This document shows positions 22,414 to 49,230 of a DNA stretch of 64,000 bases, piece by piece. This DNA comes from Glutamicibacter uratoxydans. GTDB taxonomy: Bacteria > Actinomycetota > Actinomycetes > Actinomycetales > Micrococcaceae. The stretch is from positions 62,001 to 126,000 of the forward strand of contig NZ_BJNY01000002.1 of NCBI RefSeq assembly GCF_006539925.1, read 5' to 3'. Within the stretch, counting starts at the first letter, position 1. Each line of letters opens with the position of its first letter. A program made the translations under genes and the position numbers. The notes beneath the pieces are model-generated. The model saw nothing but the letters and a program-made list of their open reading frames with translations, was not told the DNA's origin and searched no databases.

Positions 22414-23865
22414 ATGAGTGCAGAACTGCCCAAGTCCATGCCGGCGCCGTCCAACGGGGAGAACGCGATTCCGCGGCTGGCCTCCAGCCAACCCTTCGTC
22501 GACTTCATGGCCACCGGCTGGGCCACGCCAGATCTGCCGGCTCCGGTAGCACCCGACGCGGCGGCGGCCGCCGCCGCCCACCGCGAAAAGCTTTCGGAGG
22601 CCTTCCCCGGCCAGGGCATCTTGGTCTTTGCAGGCTCCGCACCGGTGCGCTCCAATGACTGCTACTACGAGTTCCGTGCGCACTCAGACTTCGTCTACCT
22701 GATCAACGCACAGATCGAGGATGCAGTGTTGGTGGGCCATCCAACCGGCCACGGCCACGATTTTGAGCTGTTCCTGCCGGTGCCATTCACCCCTGGCACC
22801 GCTGACTTCTTCTCCAATGCCATCCATGGTGAACTGTGGGTGGGCCCAAGCCACAACACCGCTCAGTGGAGCGCTGCCCTGGGCATTCCCGTTCGTTCTA
22901 TCACCGAGCTGGAAACTGCTGTGCGCGCAGGCACCTTCGCCGCTGCAGGCTCCGCCAAGGCCTCCGAGCTGGCCACGCTGAATGCGCAGGATTCACCGGT
23001 GCTGCGCCGCGTACTCTCGCAGCTGCGCATGGTCAAGGACGCCTGGGAGATCGGCCAGCTGCGCGCCTCGGTGGACCACACAGTGGAGGGCTTCCGCCAG
23101 GTGCTGGCGGCCATCCCGCAGTCAATCGCCGAAGGCGGCGAGCGCTGGCTGCAGGGCACCTTCGACCGTGTGGCCCGCACCTACGGCAATGGCCCGGGCT
23201 ATGCGACGATCATCGGCGCCGGCATCCACGCGCCGACCCTGCACTGGACCCGCTGCGATGGACCGGTGAGCGAAGACCAGCTGCTGCTGCTGGACATGGG
23301 CGTGGAGGAACGCTCCTGCTACACCGCGGATGTCACCCGCACCTTCCCGGTAGCCGGCTCCTTCTCCGAGCCCCAGCGCCTGGTGCACGACCTGGTGGAG
23401 AAGTCGCACCGCGCAGGCCTTGCCACGCTGGCCCCGGGCAATTCCTTCAGCGACTTCCACTTCGCCTGCATGGAGGTCATCGCCCAGGGCCTAAGCGACT
23501 GGGACCTGCTGCCGGTCTCCGTGGATGAGGCGCTCTCCCCCACCGGCCAGCAGCACCGCCGCTGGCTGGTCTGCGGCGTGGGCCACCACCTAGGCCTAGA
23601 CGTGCACGACTGCTCGCATTCCCACTACGAGGACTACCAGGGCGCGGCGCTGGAAGAGAACATGGTGCTCACCGTGGAGCCGGGCCTCTACTTCCACGCC
23701 CACGACCAGCTGGTCCCGCCGGAGCTGCGCGGCCTGGGCGTGCGCATCGAGGACGACCTGCTGATCACCGCAAACGGCTATGAGAACCTCTCCGCCGAGC
23801 TGCCGCTGGATGCGGCCGGCCTGCAGAACTGGATGAACCAGGCAATGAAAGGAGCCAACGCATGA
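22414..23865 (+). CDS. Aminopeptidase P-like Xaa-Pro peptidase (M24)
   Basis: A 483-residue M24 metallopeptidase with an N-terminal creatinase/aminopeptidase-P domain (about 1-200) and a pita-bread catalytic domain. All five metal ligands are visible: the two Asp in LLLDMGVEE and TADVTRTF, the His in VGHHLGLDVHD, and the two Glu in TVEPGLYF and RIEDDLL. The family cleaves an N-terminal residue that precedes proline, acting in the cytoplasm. AAAGGAG precedes the ATG. Its stop overlaps the next gene's ATG by four bases, starting a three-gene operon of proline-directed peptidases. The product is surely an M24 peptidase; exact specificity is inferred. Confidence 0.93.
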   Translation: MSAELPKSMPAPSNGENAIPRLASSQPFVDFMATGWATPDLPAPVAPDAAAAAAAHREKLSEAFPGQGILVFAGSAPVRSNDCYYEFRAHSDFVYLINAQIEDAVLVGHPTGHGHDFELFLPVPFTPGTADFFSNAIHGELWVGPSHNTAQWSAALGIPVRSITELETAVRAGTFAAAGSAKASELATLNAQDSPVLRRVLSQLRMVKDAWEIGQLRASVDHTVEGFRQVLAAIPQSIAEGGERWLQGTFDRVARTYGNGPGYATIIGAGIHAPTLHWTRCDGPVSEDQLLLLDMGVEERSCYTADVTRTFPVAGSFSEPQRLVHDLVEKSHRAGLATLAPGNSFSDFHFACMEVIAQGLSDWDLLPVSVDEALSPTGQQHRRWLVCGVGHHLGLDVHDCSHSHYEDYQGAALEENMVLTVEPGLYFHAHDQLVPPELRGLGVRIEDDLLITANGYENLSAELPLDAAGLQNWMNQAMKGANA

Positions 23866-25079
23866 GCACCTATACGCTGGCTAATGCGCTGGTCTTCGAC
23901 GGCCAGCAGTTCCTCGACGCTCCCACCAACATCACCGTCGCCGACGGCGTGATCACTGCAGTCGGAGACCAGTCCGAGGGCACCGTGATCGACGCCGCAG
24001 GGCGCTGCGTGCTGCCCGGGCTGATCGACGCCCACTTCCATGCCTACGCGGTGGCCCTGCAGGGGCTGGACAATGAGCTGGGCCCGCTGTCCTATTCGGC
24101 ACTGGCAGGTTCGCACCGGCTGGCCGATGCGCTGCGCCGCGGCTTCACCACCGTGCGCGACGTGGCCGGCGGAGACCTGGGCCTGGCCCGGGCCATCGAG
24201 GAGAAGCTCTTCGCCTCCCCGCGCTACTACTTCACCGGGCCTGCCTTCAGCCAGACCGGCGGCCACGGCGACCCGCGCGAGGCGCACCTTGACTCCTGCT
24301 TCACCCACGGGCACATGTGCCGGATCGTCGACGGGCCAGACGCCCTGCGCGTAGCGGTGCGCGATGCCTTCCGCACCGGGGCGCACGCCATCAAGATCAT
24401 GACCAGCGGCGGGGTCATCTCGCTGACCGACCCGCTGGAAATTCCGCAGTATTCCCCCGAGGAGATCCGCACCATCACCTCCGAGGCCGCCCGCCGTGGC
24501 TCCTATGTCTGCGCGCACGCCTACTCGGTTCCAGCCATCCGCCACTCGGTGGAAAACGGGGTGCGCAGCATCGAGCATGGCAACCTGCTCGATGCAGACA
24601 CCGCCAAGCTCATGGCCGAGCACGACGCCTTCCTGGTCCCCACCCTTGCCGCCTATGCGGCTATGGATTCGCGCGGCGAAGAACTGGGTCTGGCCGAGGT
24701 CTCCCAGCAGAAGAACAGGATCGTGCTCGAGCGCGGGCAAGAAGCCGTGCGCCATGCACTGGCTGCTGGGGTCAAGGTGGGCTTTGGCAGCGATTTGATG
24801 GGCGAGCTGGGCGACGAGCAGCTGCACGGCCTGGCCCTGCAGGCGGCCGCCTCCACCGTGGACGACGTGCTGCGTTCTGCAACCTCGGTCAATGCGCAGC
24901 TGATCGGCAATGACTCGATCGGCCAGTTGGGCGCCGGGAAGATCGCCGACCTGCTGGTGCTCGACGGGGATCCGCGCGAGGACCTTGACTATCTGGTTTC
25001 CGAAAACCAGCACCGCACCGTCATCCAGTCGGGCGCCGCGAGCGTCGACGGGCTGAACCTGCTGGCAGGGGTGAAATGA
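23862..25079 (+). CDS. Amidohydrolase, probable Xaa-Pro-type dipeptidase
   Basis: A 405-residue metal-dependent hydrolase of the amidohydrolase superfamily. The HxH pair is in DAHFHAYA near residue 60. Further ligands lie in KIMTSGG (Lys near 180), CAHAYS, EHGNLLD and the catalytic Asp of GFGSDLMG near 310. The N- and C-terminal strands form the small beta-sandwich typical of the group (AGRCVLPGLID, GKIADLLVLDGDP). Close relatives include imidazolonepropionase-like prolidases that cut C-terminal-proline dipeptides. Overlaps of four bases with both neighbours tie it to the peptidase operon, which favours a dipeptidase over another amidohydrolase role. Confidence 0.85.
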   Translation: MSTYTLANALVFDGQQFLDAPTNITVADGVITAVGDQSEGTVIDAAGRCVLPGLIDAHFHAYAVALQGLDNELGPLSYSALAGSHRLADALRRGFTTVRDVAGGDLGLARAIEEKLFASPRYYFTGPAFSQTGGHGDPREAHLDSCFTHGHMCRIVDGPDALRVAVRDAFRTGAHAIKIMTSGGVISLTDPLEIPQYSPEEIRTITSEAARRGSYVCAHAYSVPAIRHSVENGVRSIEHGNLLDADTAKLMAEHDAFLVPTLAAYAAMDSRGEELGLAEVSQQKNRIVLERGQEAVRHALAAGVKVGFGSDLMGELGDEQLHGLALQAAASTVDDVLRSATSVNAQLIGNDSIGQLGAGKIADLLVLDGDPREDLDYLVSENQHRTVIQSGAASVDGLNLLAGVK

Positions 25080-26374
25080 ACCCAACCTTGATCGCCAGCT
25101 GCACCGTGGCAGGCAGGCACTTCAAAGACTACTCGCTCCAGGTCCCGCTGAACTGGGAAGACCCCGCCGGCGAGCACATCACCGTGTTCTACCGCGAGGT
25201 GTCCGCCACCCACCGCGAGCACGAAGAACTTCCGCTGATGATCTACCTGCAGGGCGGACCCGGCGGGGCCGGTCCACGCCCCATCGGGGATTCCGGCTGG
25301 CTGTCGGTAGTGCTCGAACGCTACCGCGTGATCCTCATGGACCAGCGCGGCACCGGCGCCTCCACCCCGGTGACCAAGCAGGTCATCGACGGCTTCGACT
25401 CCGGAGAGGCGGGCGCTGCCTACCTTGAGAATTTCCGCGCAGATTCGATCATCCGCGATGCTGAAGCCATCCGCATCCACGGCTACGATTCCAAGCCATG
25501 GGTCACCCTGGGCCAAAGCTATGGCGGGTTTCTCACGCTGAGCTATCTCAGCTTCTTCCCCGAGGCGCTGGCCGGCTGCCTGATCACTGGCGGACTGCCC
25601 AGCCTGTATCCCTGCGCGGCCTCGGTATACGCGCGGACCATCAACAGGGTGCGGGCCAAGAATGAGAAGTTCTACAAGCTCTACCCGGCTGACCGGCAGC
25701 GCGTGGAAAACCTTGTCCGCACGCTGAACGAGGGCGAATACTTCCTGCCGGACGGCGACCGCTTCACCGTGCGCAGGCTGCAGTCGCTGGGCATCGACTT
25801 CGGCATGGGACCGGGCTTCGAGCGCCTGCACTGGCTGCTGGAGCTCTCGGCAGACGGTACGAACATCAGCAATGCGCTGCTGCAGGAAGTCCAGAACCGC
25901 ACCAGCTTCGCCTCCAACCCGCTGTTCGCCGTGCTGCAGGAAGACATCTACGGCGACGGGGCCAACGGGGCTGCACGCTTCGCGGCCGAGGCAGAGCTGG
26001 AGCTTCATCCGGAGTTCTCCACCGAAGCGCAGCCTCTGCTGTTCACCGGGGAGATGATGTTCCGCTGGACCTTCGAGGAAACCAAGCTGCTACGGCCTTT
26101 CCTGCCTGCGGTCAAGGAGCTGGCGGTGCGCCGCACCCACCGGAAGATCTACGACCGCGAAAAGCTGGCAGCCAACCAGGTGCCGATCGCCGCGGCCGTC
26201 TACCACGACGACATGTATGTGGATGCCGGCCTATCCCTGGATACAGCGTCCAAGGTGGGCAATCTGCATGCCTGGGTGACCAATGAGCATGAGCACGACG
26301 GGATCAACGATCCATCGGTGCTGCGCCGCCTGCTGAAGAATCTGGATGCACTCGGCGGTCCGCTGCAGCATTAA
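25076..26374 (+). CDS. Prolyl aminopeptidase-like alpha/beta hydrolase (S33)
   Basis: A 432-residue serine hydrolase. The oxyanion-hole motif LQGGPGGAGPR is near residue 60, the DQRGTGAS strand follows, and the nucleophile elbow is GQSYGG near 145. The likely acid and His are in HDDMYVD and NEHEHDG near the C terminus. The long form matches proline iminopeptidases that release N-terminal proline from peptides. It is the last gene of the peptidase operon and is followed by a strong hairpin. Together the three enzymes should strip Xaa-Pro, Pro-Xaa and short proline peptides. Confidence 0.9.
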   Translation: MNPTLIASCTVAGRHFKDYSLQVPLNWEDPAGEHITVFYREVSATHREHEELPLMIYLQGGPGGAGPRPIGDSGWLSVVLERYRVILMDQRGTGASTPVTKQVIDGFDSGEAGAAYLENFRADSIIRDAEAIRIHGYDSKPWVTLGQSYGGFLTLSYLSFFPEALAGCLITGGLPSLYPCAASVYARTINRVRAKNEKFYKLYPADRQRVENLVRTLNEGEYFLPDGDRFTVRRLQSLGIDFGMGPGFERLHWLLELSADGTNISNALLQEVQNRTSFASNPLFAVLQEDIYGDGANGAARFAAEAELELHPEFSTEAQPLLFTGEMMFRWTFEETKLLRPFLPAVKELAVRRTHRKIYDREKLAANQVPIAAAVYHDDMYVDAGLSLDTASKVGNLHAWVTNEHEHDGINDPSVLRRLLKNLDALGGPLQH

Positions 26375-26480: not shown

Positions 26481-27023
26481 TCAGCGAAGCACACGGTAGA
26501 TCAGGTGGGTCTCACTTGCGAAAGCCGAAGTTTCCAACCGTTCAAGTTCAATACGTTTTCCCAAACCTGCAAACAAGGAAATCCCATTGCCAAGCAGTAC
26601 TGGAGCGATATCAAGGTGCAGTTCGTCAACCAATCCAAGCAGAAGGCACTGCCGGGAAATCTTCCCACCCAACAAACTGACGATTCCGTCTCCAGCATCC
26701 CGTTTAGCTGATGCAACGGCACCGGAAATGTCATCAACAACGAACGTGTAAGTGATGCCGTCGCGTTCTACCGGTGCCGTGGCAGTGTGCGTCATTAGAT
26801 AAACCGGCACCTGAAGCATTCCGCCATAGGGAATTTCACCGTCTTCAATCGTCTGCGTTGGATTTGCGCCGCCAACAATAGCGCCGATTCGACTCATGAC
26901 GGAGGCAACGACTAAGTCATCCTCAGGTGCGGAAGGACGGCCAAACATCCAGTCCACACCACCCTCAGGGTCAGCCATGTACCCGTCAAGTGTGATGGTT
27001 GCGTGGACAATCACCGTAGCCAT
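26481..27023 (-). CDS. Dihydrofolate reductase/RibD C-terminal-like protein
   Basis: A 180-residue protein of the DHFR/RibD reductase-like fold common in actinobacteria. The N-terminal strand VHATITLDGYMADPEG, the VSLLGGKISRQCLLLGLVDEL segment (GG nucleotide contact) and the LDIAPVLLGNGISLF segment are typical. Members bind NADPH-like cofactors, but most have no proven substrate. It is a lone gene facing the peptidase operon, with only the hairpin between them. It looks unrelated to the neighbouring peptide-use genes. Confidence 0.85.
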   Translation of the reverse strand: MATVIVHATITLDGYMADPEGGVDWMFGRPSAPEDDLVVASVMSRIGAIVGGANPTQTIEDGEIPYGGMLQVPVYLMTHTATAPVERDGITYTFVVDDISGAVASAKRDAGDGIVSLLGGKISRQCLLLGLVDELHLDIAPVLLGNGISLFAGLGKRIELERLETSAFASETHLIYRVLR

Positions 27024-27268: not shown

Positions 27269-29626
27269 CTAGCGGGTGGTTGCCTTCAGGCTCACCCCCG
27301 AGTAGGCGTCGTTGGTGCTCAGCGAAATGTAGTTGTAGCCGGCTGGCGGGTTCGGAACGGTGATCGACTCGTTGTTTCCGGACTCGGTGGAGCGGTAGTT
27401 GTGGTGGTTCGGTCCGGCCCAGTTCCAGGGGCTGTAGAACAGGTCTGCATTGCCGGTGCCGCCGCTGGTGTTGATCTGCAGTTCCTTTGTGCCCTCGGGA
27501 ACGTAGATGTAGAAGTAGTTCAGGTTGTCCTTGGTGCCCGAGAGGTTCTTCGCGGTGCAGCTGGAGGTCAGCGCCTGGCCGGTGGTTTCGGTGCAGGTTT
27601 CAGGATCGGTCGGATCCACTGGGTCCACCGGGTCGGTTGGCACGCTCGGCTTGCATTCGCCGTTGGCGCAGCCGTCCAGGAAGGTGGAGAACTCGGCGTC
27701 AAGGCTCGTGCCGATGGTGTTCTTCAGGTAGTTGCGGGATTCCTGCCACTTGCCCTGGCGGTAGAAGTCGAGGATGGTCTGCGTTTCCTGCGGGTGCTTG
27801 TTCAGCATGAAGTTCACCGCAAGGTAGCCCCAGCGGTAGATGCGGTTGGTGTCGCTGTTCTCGTAGGTGTTGTCGAAGATCTCGCTGAGCTTGTAGGTCT
27901 TCTGCGCGGCCAGCTGGTTCGCAGCGGTGTAGTCCTCGCCGCGGTAGCCGTAGTTCACGTACTCGGCGAAGCCTTCAACCCACCAGATGGTCGGCACCGT
28001 CAGTCCGGCGCCGAAGTCTCCGTACATGTCGAAGCGGCCGTCGAGGTAGTGGGTGTACTCGTGGTTCAGGTTCCAGATGTGGAAGGTGGGCTTGAGCCAT
28101 TCGGCCTCATAGGCGATGAATGCAGGCTTGTTGCCCTCCTGGCTCGGGTCGCCCTCCAGGTACATGCCGCCGTTGTTGGTGTCGATGCCGAAGATGGCGC
28201 CGGCATAGGTCTGGTAGTCGCTGCTGGAGGAGAAGACGTTCACGTCGATGCTCGTGTTCACATCGTCCGCTACCGGGGTCTTGGTGCCTGCGGCCTTGTA
28301 GAAGTACTCGTCCTGTTCCTTGAGCGAGGTGCAGGATTCATCGAATTCTTCGTTGCTCACCGACTGGGTGTTGAACTTGATGCTGGTGCTGCATTCGCGG
28401 TTCTGGCTGAGCACGGCGGTGCGCAGCTTGCCCGAGAGGTCGCAGGTTCCGTAGTCCGAGCAGTTGCCCTCGTCGTAGTAGTTGACCATGTCCGCCAGGC
28501 CAACCCAGAGCTTCGCGGTATCCCCGGTCATTGAGGTGCGCGAAAGCAGGTCGATGACCTTTGGCTTGACCGATTGCTTCAGCTGTTCGTCGCCCAGGAA
28601 GCGTGCGAGTTCGCGGCCGGCGTTGGCGACCAGGAAGTCGCTGTTGGTGCCCATCAAGTCGAGGTGCTTGACTGCGAAATCATGCAGGGTGGAAAGGATC
28701 TGCGGGTTGGCAGCAACTGCTTCGGAGAAGCCGTCGAACTGGTGGCCGCGGAAGAGCACGGTGAACACGTTGTTGGTGGCGTTGCGGAAGTTCCAGCTGG
28801 CTTCGCGCTCGGCATTGAAGCCTTCGAGCAGGTCGACCAGCACGCCGAGGAATCGGGCGTTGTTCTCTGAGGAGTCGATCAGCGTCACCGATTCGCCGAG
28901 CACCTGGGCGCTGTCTTCATTGAGCGTCAGGGACTTCGGGTTGGCGAAGAATGCCTGCAGTGCATCGCCTACCAGGGCCTTGAGCTCCGGGCCGTAGCTG
29001 CCCACGGTGTCCGACTGGTAGTACTGCACAAAGTAGCCGGCGCGCAGGTAGAGCACCAGCTGCAAGGTGGAGGCCGAGTTGCTGCCGTCGTAGTTCGCGG
29101 CGTCGTTCTTGAACGCCTGGGCCACGGTGAGCATGTCTGCCTGGTTGAACAGGTCCTTCGCGGTGGTGCCGGTGGCGTTGAACAGCGAGTTCACACAGTT
29201 GAAATCTGCGGCCTTGATGGCCTGGACCAGGCCCGAGCCGCTCTGGTTTCCAATGGCTCCGGGGCTGCATTCGCCCGCCGCGCCGGTTGCGTTCTCCGGG
29301 CCGGAAGTGCTTGCCTTGGCCTTTTTGGCCTTTTTGTCCTTCTTTTCGAGCTTCTGGTTTTCCTTCTGGTTCTTTTCAACCAGCTTCATGTCCACCAGCG
29401 GACGCGGAGCCTCGTTCTTGCCGAGCACCGGATCCAGTTCCGGCGAATACTCGCCCTGGATGAAGTTTGGAGCCGGAACCGACTGTGCCTTGTCCGCGCC
29501 CTGGTCCGCGGCTGGCTTCTGTGCCATCGCCGGGGCGACGCCGCTGGTCAGCGACAGTCCCAGTGCTGCGATGGACACCGCGGCGGCAATGCGCCGCACC
29601 GGTGCTGATGATGACAAACCCTGCAT
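27269..29626 (-). CDS. Secreted M9 microbial collagenase with C-terminal PPC domain
   Basis: A 785-residue exoenzyme. I start at the ATG at 29626, which opens a Sec signal peptide: basic PVRRI, hydrophobic core, cleavage at AMA-Q near residue 35. A Lys/Glu-rich linker follows (about 75-100). The M9 activator and peptidase regions come next. The zinc site is HEYTH with the third ligand in VEGFAEY about 30 residues on. The last 100 residues form a pre-peptidase C-terminal (PPC) beta domain ending in LKATTR, as in clostridial and Vibrio collagenases. The enzyme should cut native or denatured collagen outside the cell. It is divergent from a peptide importer and 12 kb from hydroxyproline catabolism genes, suggesting a shared purpose. 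Confidence 0.93.
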   Translation of the reverse strand: MQGLSSSAPVRRIAAAVSIAALGLSLTSGVAPAMAQKPAADQGADKAQSVPAPNFIQGEYSPELDPVLGKNEAPRPLVDMKLVEKNQKENQKLEKKDKKAKKAKASTSGPENATGAAGECSPGAIGNQSGSGLVQAIKAADFNCVNSLFNATGTTAKDLFNQADMLTVAQAFKNDAANYDGSNSASTLQLVLYLRAGYFVQYYQSDTVGSYGPELKALVGDALQAFFANPKSLTLNEDSAQVLGESVTLIDSSENNARFLGVLVDLLEGFNAEREASWNFRNATNNVFTVLFRGHQFDGFSEAVAANPQILSTLHDFAVKHLDLMGTNSDFLVANAGRELARFLGDEQLKQSVKPKVIDLLSRTSMTGDTAKLWVGLADMVNYYDEGNCSDYGTCDLSGKLRTAVLSQNRECSTSIKFNTQSVSNEEFDESCTSLKEQDEYFYKAAGTKTPVADDVNTSIDVNVFSSSSDYQTYAGAIFGIDTNNGGMYLEGDPSQEGNKPAFIAYEAEWLKPTFHIWNLNHEYTHYLDGRFDMYGDFGAGLTVPTIWWVEGFAEYVNYGYRGEDYTAANQLAAQKTYKLSEIFDNTYENSDTNRIYRWGYLAVNFMLNKHPQETQTILDFYRQGKWQESRNYLKNTIGTSLDAEFSTFLDGCANGECKPSVPTDPVDPVDPTDPETCTETTGQALTSSCTAKNLSGTKDNLNYFYIYVPEGTKELQINTSGGTGNADLFYSPWNWAGPNHHNYRSTESGNNESITVPNPPAGYNYISLSTNDAYSGVSLKATTR

Positions 29627-29871
29627 TGAGTTCTTCTTTCGTAGATTTACTTCCGCAAATGCGATGTGCATCACGGCCCCATGAGGTTGAACGCTAGGCC
29701 ACGCCGACTGGGCTCTGCAATGGTTTTTGAGCAATTGTCGCCACCCCGACAGGCGCGTCAGGTTTACGCCGTGCAATTTTCGAATGATCAGCCCAAGTAA
29801 CAGTGCAATGGTGCTAATCTGGATTTCGATCACCATCCTGTGAGCCAACCCACACACCCTTGGAGGACCCG

Positions 29872-34369: not shown

Positions 34370-34371
34370 AA

Positions 34372-36267: not shown

Positions 36268-36292
36268 CAGTTCAGCCCAACGAGATGAAACC

Positions 36293-36338: not shown

Positions 36339-36421
36339 CTTCGCTCTTGCAGCGCTAGAGCAACTTCAAAGCTTGCTGAACTCAGCATGCGATCCTTAGA
36401 CATTGTGAGAACCTTGAGCCC

Positions 36422-37797: not shown

Positions 37798-37837
37798 CTA
37801 TCCATAAACGCGCAGATATCCACGGCTATTGATCGAC

Positions 37838-37868
37838 CCAATCCAGAACCCGGACGACTCCGAATACC
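37838..37868 (+). promoter_or_regulatory. SigK-type promoter of the molybdopterin oxidoreductase, inside a hairpin
   Basis: CCAATCC at 37838-37844, 15 bases, then CCGAATACC at 37860-37868, the same layout as before the fasciclin gene. The -10-like block is exactly the loop of a perfect 10-bp inverted repeat (CCGGACGACT at 37850-37859 and AGTCGTCCGG at 37869-37878). The hairpin could also act as the rskA transcription end. Confidence 0.75.
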
Positions 37869-37932
37869 AGTCGTCCGGTGTTCTGGCCGATAGACAAGAA
37901 CACATCGCATCAAGTGACAGGGGTTGAGTCCT

Positions 37933-41022: not shown

Positions 41023-42489
41023 CTACTCCTTCGGTGAATCTTCGAGGTCTGCAATTTCACCCAGCGGAACCGGGATGGAGACTGGTCGTTTATAGGTATT
41101 GGCAACTGACTGGGCAAAGGCTTCATGCTTGTCCCCACAGGTGGCCAGGCAGGAGGCCGCGTAGCCGCAGACCCTTCCCTGGCACCAGCCCATGCCTGCA
41201 CGGGTGGTCGACTTGATGCTGCGGGCATCGACTGCCTTGAGCTCGTCGCGGGCCTGGATGATCTCCCCGGCGGTGACTTCCTCGCAGCGGCACACCACGG
41301 TGTCTTCCTCCAGGTTCCCGCTCCAGTAGTCGGGGACCTGGTGGGCCTGGTGCATGGCGCGGGCAAAGGCGCGGTGCCGGGAGATGGTCTTCAGTTCCTT
41401 GGCCACTTCGCTTTGCTGCGGTGCCTGTCCGGAGCCCAACGCCGCACGGTAGCCGGCGACGGTTCCTTCTGCCACGGCGAGCGCCGCTCCCCCGATGCCG
41501 GTCACTTCCCCGGCGGCCAGGACGTTGGCTCCGCTGGTCAGCTGGAATTCGTCCACATCTGCCACCAGTGAGCCGTCCACGTCCATGTGGGTTGCCACGC
41601 CGAAGGCGGTGAGCAGCTCCAGCTGGGTGGTGAAGCCGAAGCCCAGGCCCACGCAGTCGACGTTCTCTATGCGCTCCTCGCTGCCTGCGATGACAGCGCC
41701 GGTCTTGTCGGTGCGGGCGATGCTCACTGCTTCCACCTTCTCGGCGCCGTGGATTGCGGTGATGACGGTGCTGCGTTTGTAGGGAATGCGGTGGCGCAGC
41801 AGGTCCCAGATGTATTCGGCTCCTTCGATGCCCTTGGCCGGCACCGCCAGCGGGGCTTTCAGGTTTTTGAGCCATCCGCTCAGGTCGGCTGACTCGCAGA
41901 TGGCAAGCACGCTGCCGCCGGCATGGGCAACGTTGCTGGCTACGGGCAGCAGGAAGGGTCCGGTGCCTGCGAGCACGATCCGCTGTCCTGCCAGCACTCC
42001 CTGCCCCTTGATCAGCGCCTGCACGGCTCCTGCTGTCATGACTCCGGGAAGGTCCCATCCGGGGATCGGGATCTGCCGGTCGTAGGCGCCCGTGGCCACC
42101 ACCAGCCGGTCTGCGGTCAGGGTGCTGGCCGGGGCCTGCGTCCCGGCGGCGGTGGCGCTGGTCAGCTGCAGGGTGATGCGCTCATCTTCACGCTGCTGCG
42201 CCATCCACACCTGGGTGTTGGGCAGGTAGGCCAGGGTTCCGGCGGCGATGCCCGCGTCAAAGGCGGCGCGCAGCGAGAGGTAGGTTTTCCAGTCGTGGTG
42301 GCCGGTGGAATCCGGCTGTACGCCTGGCTGTCTTCCCGGCTGTTCAAGGCGGTGGCGCCAGTATTGGCCGCCAGGCTGGTCATTGGCGTCGATGCAGGTG
42401 ACCTGTGCTCCGTGGGCCAAGGCGTTGGCGGCGGCGGCCAGTCCGGCAGGCCCGGCTCCGATGACTGCCACATGGATCTTCTGGCTCAT
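41023..42489 (-). CDS. D-hydroxyproline dehydrogenase, FAD/2Fe-2S large subunit
   Basis: A 488-residue flavoprotein. The ATG at 42489 has AAGGAG upstream and overlaps the stop of the small ferredoxin gene by four bases. A Rossmann FAD motif opens the protein (AVIGAGPAGLAAA), and a second nucleotide site lies near 160 (VLAGTGPFLLPVA). The C terminus has a BFD-like 2Fe-2S site with Cys pairs in VVCRCEEV and GWCQGRVCG. This layout matches the alpha subunit of heteromeric D-hydroxyproline dehydrogenases and opine oxidases. With the two preceding genes it should oxidise cis-4-hydroxy-D-proline to pyrroline-4-hydroxy-2-carboxylate. Confidence 0.9.
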   Translation of the reverse strand: MSQKIHVAVIGAGPAGLAAAANALAHGAQVTCIDANDQPGGQYWRHRLEQPGRQPGVQPDSTGHHDWKTYLSLRAAFDAGIAAGTLAYLPNTQVWMAQQREDERITLQLTSATAAGTQAPASTLTADRLVVATGAYDRQIPIPGWDLPGVMTAGAVQALIKGQGVLAGQRIVLAGTGPFLLPVASNVAHAGGSVLAICESADLSGWLKNLKAPLAVPAKGIEGAEYIWDLLRHRIPYKRSTVITAIHGAEKVEAVSIARTDKTGAVIAGSEERIENVDCVGLGFGFTTQLELLTAFGVATHMDVDGSLVADVDEFQLTSGANVLAAGEVTGIGGAALAVAEGTVAGYRAALGSGQAPQQSEVAKELKTISRHRAFARAMHQAHQVPDYWSGNLEEDTVVCRCEEVTAGEIIQARDELKAVDARSIKSTTRAGMGWCQGRVCGYAASCLATCGDKHEAFAQSVANTYKRPVSIPVPLGEIADLEDSPKE

Positions 42490-42773
42490 GGGCGCTCCTT
42501 GGCGGTCTCGGTGTCTACCTGCTGGCCTTCGCACACCCGCACCATGCAGGCACGCTGGTTCGGCTGCCCGTCGATGCTGACCAGGCAGTCGAAGCAGGCG
42601 CCGATGCCGCAGAACAGCCCGCGGGGGCGTTCGTTTTTCCGCGTGCTGCGCCAGGCGGTGATGCCATGGGCGATCAGCGCCCCGGCCACGGTGGTGCCAG
42701 CCTCGACGGTCAGCTGGGCGTCGTCAACGCTGATGGTGATGGGGTTTTCCACTGATTTCACGACTGGTTTCAC
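42486..42773 (-). CDS. D-hydroxyproline dehydrogenase, small 2Fe-2S subunit
   Basis: A 95-residue ferredoxin-like subunit of the SoxA-N/opine-oxidase gamma type. The cluster ligands are visible in GLFCGIGACFDCLVS, with a later Cys in NQRACMV. I start at the GTG at 42773, which overlaps the TGA of the FAD oxidase subunit. AAGGAG is only two bases before it, so the in-frame GTG codons at the fifth and eighth positions are alternatives. It lies between the two flavin subunits, as expected for a three-part dehydrogenase that passes electrons through the cluster. Confidence 0.88.
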   Translation of the reverse strand: MKPVVKSVENPITISVDDAQLTVEAGTTVAGALIAHGITAWRSTRKNERPRGLFCGIGACFDCLVSIDGQPNQRACMVRVCEGQQVDTETAKERP

Positions 42774-43936
42774 GACTCCTTGCTCACGAGCGGCTGGTTG
42801 GAAAAGCGGTGCGGCGCAAAGGGGGAAAGGTCCATGTCGGTGTCCATGCCTGCCAGCGCCTGGGCCAGCAGCTTGCCGGTGCCCACCGACAGGCCGATGC
42901 CGGCGCCCTCGTGGCCGGCTGCATGCCATAGGCCAGGCGCGCGCTCGTCGTGGCCGATCACCGGAAGGTGGTCTGGGCAGTAGGGGCGGAAGCCGTGGTA
43001 GTGGCGCAGGATCTTGACATCTCGCAGGAAGGGGAAGAGGTTGATGGCGTTGTTCGCCATCGCCTTGAGCGCCTCCAGGTTCACGGATCCGTCGAAGCCC
43101 ACGCGTTCACGGCTGGAGCCGATCAGGATGGAGCCGGCAGGCGTGCCCTCCACCACCGGGGAGCTTTGCAGGCCCGCATCGGAGCTGCCCACATTGTCCA
43201 CGTATTCGGCGGCGTAGACCTTGTGGAAGATCTTCGGCGGCAGCGGTTCGGTGACCATGACAAAGCCCTTGCGCGGGTTCACCGGAACCGCCACCTCTGC
43301 CATGCCGGCAATGTTCGAGGCCCAGGTGCCGGTGGCGTTCACGACGCTGCCGGCGGCGAAGAACCCGGCGGTGCTGCGCACCCCGGTGATCCGTCCGTGC
43401 TCCTGGTGCAGGGCGGTGACGCGGGCGTTGGGCACGAACCTTGCCCCAGCATCGCAGGCAAGGCGCAGCAGCCAGGAGGCGGCGAGCATCGGCTGGACCT
43501 GGCTGTCCTGCGGGTAGTAGGCGGCGGACAGCGCCTCGGGGCTGATATGCGGTTCGGCGTCCACCAGCTGGCTGCGGTCGAGGATTTCGGCGGTGACTCC
43601 GTTGCTGCGCTGGGCAGTGGTCAGCCGGTCCAGCGAGGCCCGGGAGGATTCCTTGGAGGCGACCACCAGGCCGCCCTTGGCTTCAAATTCCCACAGCTGC
43701 GCGAACTCGGCCAGGTCGTTCTTCCAGACGCCCAGCGAGTACTGGGAGAGTTCCAGCTCTGGGCCCAGTTCTTTGTCGGACAGCAGGATGTTTCCCTCGC
43801 AGCGCGAGCTGGTGCCGGAGGCGGGGCCGGCGCTGTCGAGCACCGTGACGCCCAGCCCCTGCTTGGCGGCGAAGTAGGCGATGGCGCTGCCGATGATGCC
43901 GGCGCCGATGATGAGAACGTCACTGCCTTGTGCCAT
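42770..43936 (-). CDS. D-hydroxyproline dehydrogenase, DAO-type FAD subunit
   Basis: A 388-residue D-amino-acid-oxidase-family flavoprotein. The dinucleotide motif LIIGAGIIGSAIAY is at residues 8-21. The glycine-rich GHEGAGIGLSVGTGKLLAQ is near the C terminus. Its size and fold match the catalytic (beta) subunit of D-hydroxyproline dehydrogenase and sarcosine-oxidase-like complexes. It starts three bases after the regulator stop and overlaps the ferredoxin gene. The role as D-hydroxyproline dehydrogenase is inferred from the whole operon; D-proline or an opine is the alternative. Confidence 0.88.
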   Translation of the reverse strand: MAQGSDVLIIGAGIIGSAIAYFAAKQGLGVTVLDSAGPASGTSSRCEGNILLSDKELGPELELSQYSLGVWKNDLAEFAQLWEFEAKGGLVVASKESSRASLDRLTTAQRSNGVTAEILDRSQLVDAEPHISPEALSAAYYPQDSQVQPMLAASWLLRLACDAGARFVPNARVTALHQEHGRITGVRSTAGFFAAGSVVNATGTWASNIAGMAEVAVPVNPRKGFVMVTEPLPPKIFHKVYAAEYVDNVGSSDAGLQSSPVVEGTPAGSILIGSSRERVGFDGSVNLEALKAMANNAINLFPFLRDVKILRHYHGFRPYCPDHLPVIGHDERAPGLWHAAGHEGAGIGLSVGTGKLLAQALAGMDTDMDLSPFAPHRFSNQPLVSKES

Positions 43937-43939: not shown

Positions 43940-44629
43940 TTAGTCCTTGCGTTTGACCTCGTCGTTCGGGTCTCCGACGTTCCAGAAACCGCGGGCGTGC
44001 GAGATGTGCTTGATCAATAGGGTGTGCAGGGCGGCGCTGTCGCCCTTCTTCATGAGCTTGACCATGTCCAGGTGCTCGGCGGCCATGGTGGTCAGCTTGC
44101 GCTCGCGCATCAGGGACTTGAGCCCGTATTGGCGGGTGCGCATCCGGTAGCTGGTGGCCAGGTCCACCAGTTCGGCGTTGCCGCAGGGTCCCATCAGTTC
44201 GTGGTGGAAGGCGCGGTCTGCGCTCAGGTAGCCGTCAATGTCATTCGCCGCGGCGGCGGCGATGATGTCCTGGGCCATGGCGGAGAGCTTGTCGATGTTG
44301 GCGGCCTTGTGGTTTTCGGCGGCCAGCCTGGTGGCTTCCGGCTCGATGAGCAGGCGGATCGCGGCGATGTCCTCAAGTTCCTTGTCGGTCATGCCGGTGA
44401 CCCTGAAGCCCTTGTTCTTGATGGTTTCCACCAGGCCCTCGCGGGTCAGGTCCATCATCGCCTCGCGCACCGGGGTGGCGGAGACGCCCAGCGCCTCGCC
44501 CAGCACCGGCGCCGAGTACAGCTGGCCCTCGACCAGGTCTCCGGAGATGATGGCGGCGCGCAGCTTCTCCGCGACGGTTTCGCGCAGGCTGCGGCGTTCA
44601 TTCAGTGGTTCAAGCGCTAAGGCGTTCAT
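43940..44629 (-). CDS. GntR/FadR-family regulator of the hydroxyproline operon
   Basis: A 229-residue regulator with an N-terminal winged helix-turn-helix (about 15-75, LGEALGVSATPVREAMMDLTREGLVE) and a C-terminal FCD domain (about 90-215). The FCD metal/effector residues include Asp in SADRAFHHEL and His in AAEHLDM. Such regulators usually repress, releasing DNA when a pathway metabolite binds. It is encoded inside the operon it probably controls. A palindrome lies 32 bases before its start, and TGTA-N6-TACA sites precede the operon and the symporter. Confidence 0.9.
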   Translation of the reverse strand: MNALALEPLNERRSLRETVAEKLRAAIISGDLVEGQLYSAPVLGEALGVSATPVREAMMDLTREGLVETIKNKGFRVTGMTDKELEDIAAIRLLIEPEATRLAAENHKAANIDKLSAMAQDIIAAAAANDIDGYLSADRAFHHELMGPCGNAELVDLATSYRMRTRQYGLKSLMRERKLTTMAAEHLDMVKLMKKGDSAALHTLLIKHISHARGFWNVGDPNDEVKRKD

Positions 44630-44656: not shown

Positions 44657-45604
44657 TTACTGCAATGCTACATTGCATAAATCCACAGCGGCACTGGCCA
44701 TCGCCAGGTCCTCCCAGGCCATGCCCACCCCGGTGTACACCGCTGGCCTGCCCTTGGTACGCGTGAACTGGCCCGCCGCCAGTTCCCTGACATTCAGCGG
44801 CGCGGGACCGAGCCACTGGCCGCCTGCGTGCAGATCCACGGTGTTGCCGTTTTCGCGCAGCGCCGAGGCGCGGCCCTCCACGATGACCTCAGCCCGCAGC
44901 ATCAGCTGCGCATCAAGCTCGCGGTGCTCCAGCCCATGCTGGCCGATGGCCGCCACCAGTGCGTGGCCCGCCACCCGCGCACCGTCAAAGAGCGGAGCTG
45001 GCGAGGAACTGGCGCAGATGATGACATCCGCTTCCTCCACCGCGGGGTCTTCCTCGGCGTGAATTGAGATGCCCTCGGCCGCCAGCTCTGCGGCCGCGGC
45101 CTGGGCCTTGGCCAGCGCGCGGCCTACCAGCACGAATTCGGACTGGCCGAACAGGGCATGGAAGTAGCGGATATGGTTCTTGGCCTGGATACCGGTGCCG
45201 TAGACCAATACCTGCGGTTTGGCGCTGAAGAACGGCGTGGCCTTGGCCATTTCGCGCAGTGCCAGCACGGTGGTGCCCGGGGTGCGCAGGGCCGTCAGGG
45301 CAGTGCCGTCCAGCACCGCGATCACTGCACTGGTGGCGGCGTCGAAGAGCAGGTAGGAACCCTGGATCTTCGGCAGCCCCACGGCGGTGTTCTGCGGGTC
45401 GACAGTCAGCACCTTCACGCCGTTGCGCTCGGTACCCAGCGCCGGCATGATCAGGAATTCTCCGCGCTGAGTAGGCGCGAACAGGCGGGGCGAATCGGCT
45501 TCCGGGTCAAGCCCCGCCGCCAGCGCATCGCCCAGGATCTGCACCGCGGCGGCGGGGCCGATCTGGGAGTACAGGGTGTCTGCATCAAGGTAGGGCAGGC
45601 TCAT
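44657..45604 (-). CDS. Ornithine cyclodeaminase/mu-crystallin-family enzyme
   Basis: A 315-residue NAD(P)-dependent enzyme. The Rossmann core (VLVYGTGIQAKNHIRYF) is near residue 135, and the family's KVLTVDPQN and GSYLLFDAATSAVIAVLDGTA motifs (split across about 65-100) are present. Members act as ornithine cyclodeaminase or as reductases of delta-1-pyrroline-2-carboxylate to proline. In hydroxyproline clusters the latter handles the trans-3-hydroxyproline or D-proline branch. It overlaps the epimerase by four bases. In this operon the pyrroline reductase role fits best; true ornithine cyclodeamination is less likely. Confidence 0.85.
   Translation of the reverse strand: MSLPYLDADTLYSQIGPAAAVQILGDALAAGLDPEADSPRLFAPTQRGEFLIMPALGTERNGVKVLTVDPQNTAVGLPKIQGSYLLFDAATSAVIAVLDGTALTALRTPGTTVLALREMAKATPFFSAKPQVLVYGTGIQAKNHIRYFHALFGQSEFVLVGRALAKAQAAAAELAAEGISIHAEEDPAVEEADVIICASSSPAPLFDGARVAGHALVAAIGQHGLEHRELDAQLMLRAEVIVEGRASALRENGNTVDLHAGGQWLGPAPLNVRELAAGQFTRTKGRPAVYTGVGMAWEDLAMASAAVDLCNVALQ
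44661..44677. promoter_or_regulatory. Perfect palindrome TGCAATG-CTA-CATTGCA before the regulator gene
   Basis: The seven-base arms are exact complements around CTA. The site sits inside the last codons of the cyclodeaminase-family gene and ends 32 bases before the FadR-type regulator start. A role as an internal operator for the regulator is inferred from symmetry and place only. Confidence 0.4.
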
Positions 45605-46602
45605 AGGATGAATCCTTCCGGGAACGGATCGGTGGGGTCCAAGAAGTACTGTGCGGTGCCGGTGACCCAGGCGCGTCCGGTGACGGTGGGGATCACCGCT
45701 TCCTTGTCCCCGACGGTGGTCGTTCCCACCAGCCGGCCGGTGAACTGCGAGCCGATGAACGACTCGTTGAGGAAGTCGGTCTCCAGGGCCAGCTCGCCGC
45801 GGGCGTGCAGCTGGGCCATGCGGGCGCTGGTTCCGGTGCCGCAGGGCGAACGGTCGAACCAGCCGGGGTAGATGGCCATCGCGTGGCGCGAGTGCTGCGC
45901 GTTGGAACCCTGAGCTTTGAGGTACACGTGGTGGCAGCCGCGGATGTCGCTGCGCTCGGGGTGCACCGGTTCGTCCTGCTGGTTGATGGCTTCCATGATG
46001 GCAAGCCCGGCCTCGACCAGCTGCTGCTTGCTCTCCCGCTCGAAGGGCAGGCCCAGGGATTCCAGGTCCACCACGGCGTAGAAGTTTCCGCCGAAGGCCA
46101 GGTCGTAGCCCACTTCCCCAAAGCCGGGAACCTGGACGGTGGCATCCAGCCGGTCTACGAAGGACGGCACATTGCGGATGGTCACCGCTTTAGCGTGCCC
46201 ATCTTCAACCTGGACCGAGGCGACCACCAGGCCGGCAGGGGTGTCCAGCCGGATATCGGTGACCGGCTCAACCACCTCCACCATGCCGGTTTCCACCAGC
46301 ACCGTGGCCACGCCGATGGTGCCGTGTCCGCACATCGGCAGCAGGCCAGAAACCTCAATGTAGAGCACGCCGTAGTCTGCATCCTCGCGGGTGGGAGGCT
46401 GCAGGATTGCGCCGCTCATGGCCGCATGCCCGCGTGGTTCGTTCATCAGCAGCTTACGGATGTGGTCGCTGTTTTCCATGAACCAAAGCCGGCGTTCAGC
46501 CATGGTCTTGCCCGGAATGGTTCCCACTCCCCCGGTGATGACCCTGGTGGGCATGCCTTCGGTGTGGGAATCAACAGCGTGGAATACACGGGTGGTGCGC
46601 AT
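45601..46602 (-). CDS. 4-Hydroxyproline 2-epimerase (proline racemase family)
   Basis: A 333-residue cofactor-independent epimerase that turns trans-4-hydroxy-L-proline into cis-4-hydroxy-D-proline. Both catalytic cysteines are present, in LLPMCGHGT near 88 and SPCGTGTSARM near 253. The trans-3-hydroxyproline dehydratases of the family replace one of them, so an epimerase is favoured. I start at the ATG at 46602 with AAAGGA upstream. Its stop overlaps the next gene. As the first enzyme of the pathway, it defines the operon as hydroxyproline catabolism. Confidence 0.93.
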   Translation of the reverse strand: MRTTRVFHAVDSHTEGMPTRVITGGVGTIPGKTMAERRLWFMENSDHIRKLLMNEPRGHAAMSGAILQPPTREDADYGVLYIEVSGLLPMCGHGTIGVATVLVETGMVEVVEPVTDIRLDTPAGLVVASVQVEDGHAKAVTIRNVPSFVDRLDATVQVPGFGEVGYDLAFGGNFYAVVDLESLGLPFERESKQQLVEAGLAIMEAINQQDEPVHPERSDIRGCHHVYLKAQGSNAQHSRHAMAIYPGWFDRSPCGTGTSARMAQLHARGELALETDFLNESFIGSQFTGRLVGTTTVGDKEAVIPTVTGRAWVTGTAQYFLDPTDPFPEGFIL

Positions 46603-46630
46603 TGACGTCCTTTGGAGATTGGTGGGCGGC

Positions 46631-46669
46631 GCCGGTGCCACAAAGAATTCTCATCTTCATGGCACCGGC
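46631..46669 (-). other. Intercistronic hairpin in the hydroxyproline operon
   Basis: GCCGGTGCCA and TGGCACCGGC form a perfect 10-bp stem with a 19-base loop between the deaminase and epimerase genes. No T-run follows, so it is more likely an RNA-stability or partial-attenuation element than a full terminator. Confidence 0.45.
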
Positions 46670-46686
46670 TGGGCAAGTGCTGCTCT

Positions 46687-47592
46687 TTACTTGTAGCCGC
46701 GGGCCAGGGCGGCTTCGGTGTCTGCGGTGATTGCAGCGTGGTACTCGGCGCTCAGCGGGCCGCGCGGCGGACGGCAGGTGCCGCCCTTCAGGCCTGCCAG
46801 GTCCATGGACAGCTTGATGGCCTGGACGAATTCGGTCTTGGTGTCCCAGCGCAGCAGCGAGTGCGATTCGCGGTAGAGGGACTTGGCCTTCTCCAGGTCG
46901 TTCAAGTCTCCGCTGGTGGACAGGCGGTAGAGCTCCATCATGGTCTGCGGGAAGGCGTTGGTGTAGCCCGATACCCAGCCCACAGCGCCGGCGACGCCCA
47001 TTTCCAGCACGCTGTCGTCGGTGCCGATCAGCAGGTCCAGTTCCGGGACCAGCTCGCTGATTTCGTAGGCGCGGCGCACGTCGCCGGTGAATTCCTTGAC
47101 GCCCACGATGTAGCCGGCCTCGAACAGGCGGGCAATCAGCTTAGGAGTCAGGTCCACCTTGGTGTCGATCGGGTTGTTGTAGGCAACCACCGGGATGCCC
47201 ACCTCGGCGACCAGGCGGTAGTGCTCAACGACTTCGTCGTCGTTGGCGCGGTAGATGTTCGGCGGAAGCAGCATGACCGAGGAGGCGCCGGCTTCTGCGG
47301 CCTGGTTAGCCCAGTGGCGGGCCTGCAGGCCGCCGTAGGAGCCGATGCCTGCCATGACGGTGAAGCCGTCCGGGGCCGCGTCGATGGCGGTGGTGATGAC
47401 ACGGGCGCGCTCTTCTTCGCTCAGCGCCTGGTACTCGCCCAGCGAACCATTCGGGGCGATGCCGTCGCAGCCGTTGGCTGCCAGGAATGCCACGTGCTCT
47501 GCGAAGGCGTCGTAGTCAATGCTGAAATCTTCGTTGAACTGCAGCGAGGAGGCAACGTGTACACCCTGCCATGGCTTGCGAGTCTGAGACAT
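46687..47592 (-). CDS. Pyrroline-4-hydroxy-2-carboxylate deaminase (DapA family)
   Basis: A 301-residue class-I aldolase-fold enzyme, started at the ATG at 47592 with GGAAG upstream. The family's GSLGEYQALSEEER, YNNP near 140 and the Schiff-base lysine in GVKEFTGD near 168 are clear. True dihydrodipicolinate synthases look similar, but in a hydroxyproline operon this family deaminates pyrroline-4-hydroxy-2-carboxylate to 2-oxoglutarate semialdehyde. It is the first enzyme gene of the operon, separated from the symporter by 150 bases that hold a candidate operator. Confidence 0.9.
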   Translation of the reverse strand: MSQTRKPWQGVHVASSLQFNEDFSIDYDAFAEHVAFLAANGCDGIAPNGSLGEYQALSEEERARVITTAIDAAPDGFTVMAGIGSYGGLQARHWANQAAEAGASSVMLLPPNIYRANDDEVVEHYRLVAEVGIPVVAYNNPIDTKVDLTPKLIARLFEAGYIVGVKEFTGDVRRAYEISELVPELDLLIGTDDSVLEMGVAGAVGWVSGYTNAFPQTMMELYRLSTSGDLNDLEKAKSLYRESHSLLRWDTKTEFVQAIKLSMDLAGLKGGTCRPPRGPLSAEYHAAITADTEAALARGYK

Positions 47593-47687
47593 CTTTGTTC
47601 TTCCTTTCAATGAAGTTCATGTTGCGGACGGTGGGGCTGCACCTCGCCACCGGGAGCTTTGTTTGTGATCCGCTACACCAAAGGTAC

Positions 47688-47703
47688 TATGTACAATTTT
47701 ACA
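47688..47703 (-). promoter_or_regulatory. Candidate operator TGTAAAATTGTACATA
   Basis: On the minus strand the 16 bases read TGTAAAATTGTACATA and contain TGTA-N6-TACA symmetry. They differ by one base from the site at 49302-49317, upstream of the symporter. The site is 95 bases before the deaminase start. It is probably read by the FadR-type regulator of the operon. Confidence 0.65.
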
Positions 47704-47742: not shown

Positions 47743-49230
47743 TCAGCGGTCCTCGCTATCCAAAAGCGGCGCATGCTCCGTCGTCGCATAGCCGCGCTCG
47801 CGCTCGATCGAGCGCACCTTCCAGTACTCCGCGCCCTCGATGCCCAGCGGCCGAGGGTCAAAATGGACCTCCACGCCCAGCTTGCGCTGGCGGTCGTAGT
47901 CGCGGATCACCTTGCGCACAATCGGCGCAAGGAACAGCAGGCAGACCATATTGACCCAGCCCAGCGATGCGTAGCCGATGTCGCCAAGCGTCCAGATCAC
48001 GGCGGCCGACTCCACCGAACCGTAGAAGGTCATCGCCAGCATGCCGAGCTTGAGCAGCAGCGCCATCACCCTGCCCGGCTCCCTGCCAAAGAGGAACACC
48101 AGATTGGTATGCGCAATATAGTAGAAGGCCACCAGCGTGGTGAAGGCGAAGAAGAACAGCGCCACTGCGACAAAGCTTGGGCCAAAGCCCGGAAGCACCT
48201 GGTCGACGGCGTTCTGCGTGTAGCCGGCTCCCGCCTCCACTCCCGGAAGGTTTTCAACGACCGTGCCGCCGCTGGAAGACAACACGTTATACGAACCGGT
48301 AATGACGATCATGATGCCCGTGGCAAAGCAGACCACCACGGTGTCGATGAAGATGGAGAATCCCTGCAGCAGGCCCTGGGTCGCCGGGTGGTTGGCCGAA
48401 GCGGCGGCCGAGCCATAGGTACCCTCGCCGACGCCTGCCACATTGGAGAATACTGCGCGGCGCACGCCCCAGGCGATGGCCATGCCGGCCATGCCGCCGA
48501 ACACTTCATGTAGACCAAAAGCGCTTTCGAAGATCAATTGGAGCGCTGGGATGATTTCGGTGAAGTTCGCAAAGACAACGATCAAGGCAACAAGAATGTA
48601 TCCCAGGGCCATGAACGGCACCATCAGGTCCACCGCCTTGACTAGGCGCTTGGTACCTCCGAAGATCACCACGCCGAGAATGCCCGTCACCACCACGGCG
48701 CTGACCCATGGGGAGACCCCAAAGGCGTTCTTCATCCCGGCGGCGATGTTATTGGACTGGACGCCGGGGAAAACGACGCCATATCCCACCGCCGTCATGA
48801 CAGCGAGGGTTGCGGCGAGCCATTTGATGCGCAGGCCGAATTTCACATAGAAGGGCATGCCTCCGCGGTGCTCGCCGTTAATCTTGCGCTTGAACACCTG
48901 AGCCAGGCAGGATTCGGCAAAGGAGCTGGCAGCGCCGAGCAGTGCGCAGACGACCATCCAGAAAAGGGCGCCGGGTCCGCCGGCGGCGATGGCGGTGCCC
49001 ACGCCGGCAATATTGCCCACGCCGACGCGTGAGGCGATGGTCAACAGCAGCGCCTGCAGCGGCGCAATGCCAGAGTCGTCAACCTTGGGCTTGAAGATGA
49101 GCGTGAGCGTATGGGGCAGCAGCCTGAACTGCGCGCCGTAGGTGAGAACCGTGAAGAAGAGTCCGACAGCCAAGGCGAAATACGCCATGGGGTTCCATAA
49201 TCCATCGCTGATCGCGGTAAGTGTTTCCAT
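47743..49230 (-). CDS. Sodium/alanine symporter family (AGCS) transporter, possible hydroxyproline importer
   Basis: A 495-residue secondary transporter with about ten or eleven hydrophobic helices. AGCS signature stretches are present: ASRVGVGNIAGVGTAIAAGGPGALFWM near 65-90 (given here in parts: ASRVGVGNIAGV, GGPGALFWM), and NVAGVGEGTYGSAAAS near 265. The family carries alanine, glycine or related small amino acids with Na+ or H+. AGAGGAAA precedes the ATG. It is first in line with the hydroxyproline genes, and an operator-like site upstream is nearly identical to the one before the deaminase. Hydroxyproline or proline uptake is therefore a reasonable guess. Confidence 0.9.
   Translation of the reverse strand: METLTAISDGLWNPMAYFALAVGLFFTVLTYGAQFRLLPHTLTLIFKPKVDDSGIAPLQALLLTIASRVGVGNIAGVGTAIAAGGPGALFWMVVCALLGAASSFAESCLAQVFKRKINGEHRGGMPFYVKFGLRIKWLAATLAVMTAVGYGVVFPGVQSNNIAAGMKNAFGVSPWVSAVVVTGILGVVIFGGTKRLVKAVDLMVPFMALGYILVALIVVFANFTEIIPALQLIFESAFGLHEVFGGMAGMAIAWGVRRAVFSNVAGVGEGTYGSAAASANHPATQGLLQGFSIFIDTVVVCFATGIMIVITGSYNVLSSSGGTVVENLPGVEAGAGYTQNAVDQVLPGFGPSFVAVALFFFAFTTLVAFYYIAHTNLVFLFGREPGRVMALLLKLGMLAMTFYGSVESAAVIWTLGDIGYASLGWVNMVCLLFLAPIVRKVIRDYDRQRKLGVEVHFDPRPLGIEGAEYWKVRSIERERGYATTEHAPLLDSEDR

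Follow-up and report, generated by a model that had tools for sequence, protein, structure and literature searches.

A putative collagen-utilisation locus in Glutamicibacter uratoxydans and the linkage of its parts in other actinobacteria

Animal remains hold much nitrogen and carbon in the form of collagen, but are the genes needed to feed on it kept together and used together? A stretch of the Glutamicibacter uratoxydans genome (3.79 Mb) raises this question. Between positions 22414 and 49230 of the window (by which we mean the whole 64,000 nucleotides of contig NZ_BJNY01000002.1 that were analysed), Pfam and NCBIfam models recognise an M9 collagenase, an OppA-DF-C-B oligopeptide importer, three proline-directed-type peptidases and a complete-looking hydroxyproline (Hyp) route, all with intact motifs. 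An earlier note on this DNA had described the collagenase, the importer, three peptidases and a trans-4-hydroxyproline route as lying close together, and each of these parts was borne out by the domain models and motifs. We consider it probable (roughly 0.7) that they form a collagen-utilisation locus, situated largely on a 23-kb stretch absent from two congeners, beside an older prolyl-peptidase trio. The genes in question are the following.

22414-23865, plus strand: aminopeptidase P type protein (AMP_N and Peptidase_M24 domains)
23862-25079, plus strand: amidohydrolase-superfamily protein, Xaa-Pro dipeptidase-like (NCBIfam Xaa-Pro dipeptidase model 211 bits, cut-off 500)
25076-26374, plus strand: alpha/beta-hydrolase, S33 prolyl-aminopeptidase-like (GQSYGG motif; best PDB match 8jgn, 321 bits)
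27269-29626, minus strand: M9 collagenase (signal-peptide-like start, M9_N, M9 with HEYTH, one PPC domain)
29872-31641, plus strand: OppA oligopeptide-binding protein (SBP_bac_5; lipobox-like LSGC)
31644-33428, plus strand: fused OppD-OppF ATPase (domain models and motifs)
33431-34369, plus strand: OppC permease (domain models)
34366-35331, plus strand: OppB permease
39561-41018, minus strand: aldehyde dehydrogenase (ALDH), probable 2-oxoglutarate semialdehyde dehydrogenase (best NCBIfam model 116 bits, cut-off 750)
41023-42489, minus strand: D-Hyp dehydrogenase alpha-type subunit (FAD and Fer2_BFD domain models)
42486-42776, minus strand: small 2Fe-2S subunit (Fer2_4 domain model)
42770-43936, minus strand: DAO-family catalytic subunit
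43940-44629, minus strand: GntR/FCD regulator, HypR-like
44657-45604, minus strand: OCD/mu-crystallin family protein, probable pyrroline-2-carboxylate reductase (147 bits, cut-off 266)
45601-46641, minus strand: proline racemase family protein, probable 4-hydroxyproline 2-epimerase (HypE), with both cysteines (CGHGT, CGTGT)
46687-47610, minus strand: DHDPS family protein, deaminase-type
47743-49230, minus strand: AgcS-type sodium:amino-acid symporter (Na:Ala symporter model 394 bits, cut-off 273)

What would these proteins do? The collagenase likely starts at 29626, where the signal-peptide-like N-terminus begins. It scores 200.7 bits with PF08453 and 376.5 bits with PF01752, and it joins the M9_N and M9 domains with an HEXXH motif (HEYTH) and a downstream glutamate (WWVEGFAEY). 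Its nearest structure is PDB 7esi (381 bits), and clostridial ColH scores 41 bits. Such an enzyme would be secreted and would cut collagen or gelatin outside the cell. The importer comprises a binding protein, two permeases and two ATPase domains (OppD and OppF, fused), and may take up the resulting oligopeptides. Inside the cell, aminopeptidase P, the S33-type peptidase and the amidohydrolase prolidase would free Pro and Hyp. Among known structures, PDB 3feq/3n2c match the prolidase-like protein best (269 bits), while the S33-type protein matches proline iminopeptidase models weakly, far under their cut-off.

The Hyp block unites a two-cysteine epimerase-type protein, D-Hyp-dehydrogenase-type subunits, a DHDPS-type protein and an ALDH, and thus has, by sequence, the make-up of a trans-4-hydroxyproline cluster. 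In trans-3-hydroxyproline dehydratases, threonine replaces the second catalytic cysteine. The racemase-family protein keeps both cysteines and therefore fits an epimerase or a racemase, so that the dehydratase was ruled out as a candidate. NCBIfam scores do not decide between a 4-Hyp epimerase (357 bits, cut-off 376) and a proline racemase (370 bits, cut-off 556), but the gene context favours 4-Hyp over proline as the substrate, because the gene sits with DHDPS, DAO and ALDH genes. Hyp would then be converted to 2-oxoglutarate via HypE, the three-subunit D-Hyp dehydrogenase, the DHDPS-type deaminase and ALDH, and AgcS would take up free amino acids. The GntR/FCD regulator, being of HypR type, is predicted to act as a repressor on operators before the DHDPS and AgcS genes.

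The same genome encodes two further racemase-family homologues. The copy at L193 9340-10362 (37%) carries one in-frame stop; the copy at L192 8190-9224 (36%) is intact, and its homologues adjoin an OCD gene in the congeners G023 and G051.

Do these functions meet in other actinobacteria as well? We compared 80 named loci, the best 80 of 476 by similarity to the window HypE, taking up to 10 kb on each side (62 hold at least 20 kb). The first ten named matches of HypE come from Arthrobacter and Pseudarthrobacter (81-84%). Homologues of the DHDPS-type protein are present in 76 of the 80 loci, of the DAO-family subunit in 74, of the regulator (at least 38% identity) in 71 and of ALDH in 42. At least one homologue of the S33-type protein (12 loci), M24 (13), the prolidase-like protein (8, at 50% identity or more) or OppB (10) is carried by 26 loci, and the S33-type and M24 homologues occur jointly in 10. 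In Leucobacter celer (L034), the order is M24, S33-type, OppB, OppC, OppDF, OppA and then the Hyp operon.

Occurrence and linkage were also counted in genome samples of the family (395 genomes), the class (394) and the order (395), each drawn from a larger group, the class sample being an even one; expected values were computed from gene counts and genome sizes. M9 collagenases exceeded the cut-off in 28 genomes of the class sample, and all 28 belong to the 101 genomes with a HypE homologue (E 1e-90). Two genomes with M9 matches under the cut-off stand outside the 28, one of them (G746) among the 101 HypE genomes and the other (G496) not. In 17 of the 28 genomes (16 of 27 without our own), no more than 20 kb separate the collagenase from hypE, against 0.19 places expected. 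For aminopeptidase P, the corresponding figure is 14 of 41 genomes against 0.41 expected (11 among the 27 that have M9, 3 among the other 14), in a set that 42 genomes entered, namely the 28 with M9 and 14 hand-picked ones, some of which were already known to have M24 near hypE. OppB reaches at least 150 bits in 17 of 80 hypE neighbourhoods, taken from the 100 other HypE genomes and in several cases cut by contig ends; about 1.84 are expected, a value derived from counts in a largely overlapping set (79 of the 101 HypE genomes, families f33 and f40 left out).

Is there also a common regulatory signal? A position weight matrix (PWM) was trained on DHDPS promoters: 77 of the named loci have DHDPS, 51 of these with a site of two mismatches or fewer, and the 47 sites with no more than one mismatch were used for training. 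The pattern that collected them had itself been modelled on the two window sites described below, on sites in other loci and on the published motif. Each tested zone began 350 bases ahead of the most distant in-frame start and ended 60 bases inside the match; zones identical in sequence were counted once, and a site was counted at 14 bits or more. Of 36 M9 places, 34 were tested, leaving out our own M9 (no clear site) and that of G692 (weak, 26 bits). HypR-type operators precede 30 of these 34 M9 genes of other genomes, against 3.1 expected, and none of 200 column-permuted PWMs reached 30 (mean 6.9, maximum 26). They also precede 8 of 10 oppA, 11 of 15 M24, 2 of 4 S33-type and 48 of 72 DAO genes, whereas genes inside operons do not exceed expectation (0 of 15 OppB, 6 of 87 ProR, 1 of 74 HpoxA). 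The sites at M24/M9 and oppA of L069 and L086 had already been seen when the test was made, and L069 belongs to a genome that is itself in the test set (G685). Overall, the survey agrees with the published HypR regulon and widens it, and joint control of collagenase, importer, peptidase and Hyp genes is likely in many actinobacteria.

Two observations concern other transporters at Hyp loci. In nine loci of family f27 (L243, L244, L246, L247, L248, L252, L253, L254, L263), a distinct peptide-type ABC importer adjoins the Hyp operon, and no M9 match was found there within the stretch examined. In 14 named loci (L007-L011, L013-L017, L022, L023, L025, L026), an ABC-type ATPase gene stands upstream of DHDPS, where the window has AgcS; these ATPases are 26-36% identical to OppDF, and their genes have a HypR-type site of their own.

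What, then, do the promoters of the window itself look like? Three regions are relevant.

47690-47703, no strand assigned: HypR-type operator TGTACAATTTTACA before the DHDPS gene (23.1 bits, the best in 64 kb; 0 of 1000 shuffles)
49302-49315, no strand assigned: HypR-type operator TGTAAAATGGTACA before AgcS (18.1 bits, second best in 64 kb; P 0.004)
29627-29871, no strand assigned: divergent collagenase/oppA promoter region with three partial overlapping HypR-like sites (29770, 29796, 29802) within 46 bases

Thus, operators stand before Hyp genes, at DHDPS and AgcS, and the regulator gene is preceded by a weaker site (13.3 bits, P 0.011). The pattern TGTNNNATNNTACA, built from the DHDPS and AgcS sites, occurs at three places in the genome, two of which are those promoters. 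The literal Streptomyces coelicolor motif TGCMATGTCAC, with two mismatches allowed, gave 24 matches in the window against a shuffle mean of 37. Motif scoring did not bear out the expectation that clear HypR sites would also stand before the window's M9, oppA and M24 genes.

Several findings weigh against a single collagen programme in this strain, beginning with its promoters, which give no clear support to the idea that collagenase and Opp are induced along with the Hyp genes. The best site of the collagenase/oppA region has 9.2 bits (shuffle P 0.14), and singly its sites are no better than chance; taken together, three sites of at least 6.9 bits give P 0.006, with a threshold picked after the sites had been seen. 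The promoter of the peptidase trio, before M24, has no convincing operator (best 5.7 bits, P 0.30). The SigK promoter of the window, for which no role is expected, scores 8.5 bits (P 0.031), and partial sites of similar size therefore mean little. A reversed-pattern control of TGTNNNATNNTACA matches about as often in the genome, so that it is the placement of the sites alone that is telling. With our own M9 included, the survey count becomes 30 of 35. As to linkage, the figures given above ignore ancestry: 23 of the 28 M9 genomes belong to one genus, with four families represented, and the events are therefore not independent, which makes the chance figures a rough guide. The family models of ALDH, prolidase, S33-type, OCD and epimerase proteins all score under their own cut-offs. 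The set is also broken up by a RibD_C gene and a four-gene SigK block.

26481-27023, minus strand: RibD_C domain protein beside the collagenase (77% DNA identity in G112; no evident collagen link)
35575-39492, plus strand: fasciclin, SigK-like ECF sigma, RskA anti-sigma and sulfite-dehydrogenase-like genes, a separate four-gene block between importer and Hyp block, with homologous blocks elsewhere in genomes of the genus

Close orthologues of the window OppB are rare, being found in 5 of 395 other genomes sampled from the order. An S33-type gene follows OppB in all five, and aminopeptidase P (M24) comes next in all three of those fetched further. In G1065, a DHDPS gene adjoins M24, and HypE lies about 11 kb from OppB; the OppB homologues near the Hyp clusters of G1065 and L034 are 71% identical to that of the window. 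Another count also speaks against a dedicated collagen system: four of the five genomes have no HypE match at E 1e-60, these four being 75 to 95% complete and two of them less than 90%. This suggests that the window-type Opp is an importer for proline peptides in general, able to serve without a Hyp pathway.

Such evidence leads to a second explanation, namely that two independent neighbours lie side by side: a Hyp/imino-acid operon under HypR and a general protein-feeding unit made of collagenase, Opp and prolyl peptidases. The lack of a convincing window operator at M9/oppA or M24, the unrelated block separating importer and Hyp genes, the HypE-less genomes with close Opp orthologues and the Arthrobacter-type loci L007-L018, whose Hyp clusters have no M9, S33-type or M24 matches in the stretch examined, are all in line with it. 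However, M9, Opp and M24 are repeatedly linked with hypE elsewhere, and operators also stand before 14 of the 18 M9 genes that were not counted as hypE-linked (one of these sits on a short contig beside other Hyp genes). We thus regard this explanation as rather unlikely and a collagen-utilisation locus as the better account. The earlier view of one catabolic programme holds up in part: recurrent linkage and shared operators elsewhere speak for it, while the nearest relatives without the cluster, and the window promoters of collagenase/oppA and the peptidases, do not.

How did the locus come to be here? The relevant stretch is the following.

26366-49475, no strand assigned: 23-kb stretch that two congeners, G023 and G051, lack at the corresponding site

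Both congeners carry the peptidase trio (about 80% DNA identity; their aminopeptidase P is 82% identical to ours); 0.5 and 1.9 kb further on comes the aminotransferase that lies at 49446-50645 of the window, where it opens the next block, so that the site is empty in the two congeners. Against an old and shared system stand further counts. M9 occurs in 1 of 395 sampled family genomes, our own, and in none of the 17 other genomes of the genus listed; in these 17, the best racemase-family match is 42% identical, and there is no close HypE homologue. Conservation within the genus was therefore rejected. Clustering kept in relatives, on which the earlier note had staked its idea, does not hold for the closest of them (the 17 other genomes of the genus), and linkage recurs further out. 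The simpler reading of 26366-49475 is that it was gained here rather than lost in G023 and G051, because M9 is confined to one of the 395 family genomes and no racemase-family match in the genus exceeds 42%.

The nucleotide composition is uneven, which also counts against a single collagen locus. One might suppose that the stretch is a chance product of horizontal transfer, a mosaic in which the collagenase arrived together with genes unrelated to it and is not adaptively linked to those around it. Its absence from the same site in two congeners, the rarity of M9 in the family, the uneven composition and the genus-typical SigK block inside would all agree with such an origin. Still, the stretch unites functions that cluster in other actinobacteria, and the window-type Opp lies beside the S33-type gene in five of five other genomes, so that we hold a mere mosaic to be improbable compared with a functional collagen locus. 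No tRNA was found in the window, and no mobile-element domain was found among its scanned genes, smaller open reading frames lying outside the scan.

To what extent is such a locus already known? In S. coelicolor A3(2), HypR binds the Hyp operon promoter and that of the M9 gene SCO5912 and represses both; operon and gene rise in a hypR deletion (Kotowska et al. 2019, PMC6608401). Among the papers found, this study holds the sole experiments on a Gram-positive soil bacterium that tie a collagenase to the use of its fragments. Like the window, that regulon includes a GntR-type HypR, D-Hyp dehydrogenase subunits, a DHDPS-type deaminase and an epimerase, together with an M9 collagenase under HypR, and its operator core TGCAATGTCAC resembles the window operators. 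Unlike the window, where the whole set lies together and the collagenase has no clear operator, SCO5912 lies apart from the Hyp operon SCO6289-6293. The word "oligopeptide" is absent from the main text of the paper, and SCO6295, the one transporter in the available passages, is not named in them as a peptide importer.

A collagen cluster of about 21 kb has been published for Colwellia, a gammaproteobacterium (Borchert et al. 2021, PMC7883544). According to the available text, it shares with the window an M9 collagenase, a prolyl aminopeptidase, a hydroxyproline dipeptidase, Hyp epimerase, D-Hyp dehydrogenase, alpha-ketoglutarate semialdehyde dehydrogenase and an OCD-type enzyme. It differs in having MFS and TonB-dependent transport, a cyclophilin-type isomerase and PutR, where the window has Opp, AgcS and a GntR regulator; no cyclophilin, MFS or TonB-dependent transport domain was found in the genes scanned between 22414 and 49230. 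Given these two reports, the idea behind the locus, which the earlier note had put forward as the best candidate for an undescribed system, is not new.

Proteobacterial HypR regulons resemble the window in that a GntR-family HypR stands over hypE, hypO, hypD, hypH and sometimes an OCD gene, but their transporters, as described in the accessible text, are of HypMNPQ, MFS, TRAP and TonB types, and collagenase comes up a single time in the paper's main text (PMC5343134). A neighbourhood study of the proline racemase superfamily lists the same DAAO, DHDPS, ALDH and OCD neighbours as the window, along with one Bacilli cluster with peptidase and ABC-transport genes, and the word "collagen" is absent from its main text (PMC4113996). 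In the passages retrieved from the open-access full-text literature, with subscription journals mostly outside it, we found no locus of an actinobacterium that combines M9, Opp, prolyl peptidases and Hyp genes, nor any HypR sites at importer or peptidase genes. As far as these searches reach, the linkage of importer and peptidases and the island itself would be new, while HypR over Hyp genes and an M9 collagenase was already known.

It is tempting to go one step further and suppose that actinobacterial HypR is a general switch for collagen feeding, with the same operator on M9 genes of two score classes, an oligopeptide importer, an extra aminopeptidase P and the Hyp operon. The parts would have been joined more than once, here as an island able to turn a non-collagenolytic lineage into a collagen feeder. 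We hold this broader proposal with evenly divided confidence. From the operator set, a regulon can be predicted in many genomes, with the importer and peptidases as candidates for study, and a comparison of strains that have the 23-kb stretch with strains that lack it offers a natural way to study how a feeding trait is gained.

Finally, the window contains two other regions of some interest. A siderophore-like region of the nonribosomal peptide synthetase (NRPS) type occupies 11209-20416, with genes for an NRPS protein, a lysine/ornithine monooxygenase, an AMP ligase, a chorismate-binding enzyme, an SDR protein and an isochorismatase. At 53907-56838, a type III polyketide synthase-like gene stands with a methyltransferase and an FAD monooxygenase, possibly a small biosynthetic cluster.

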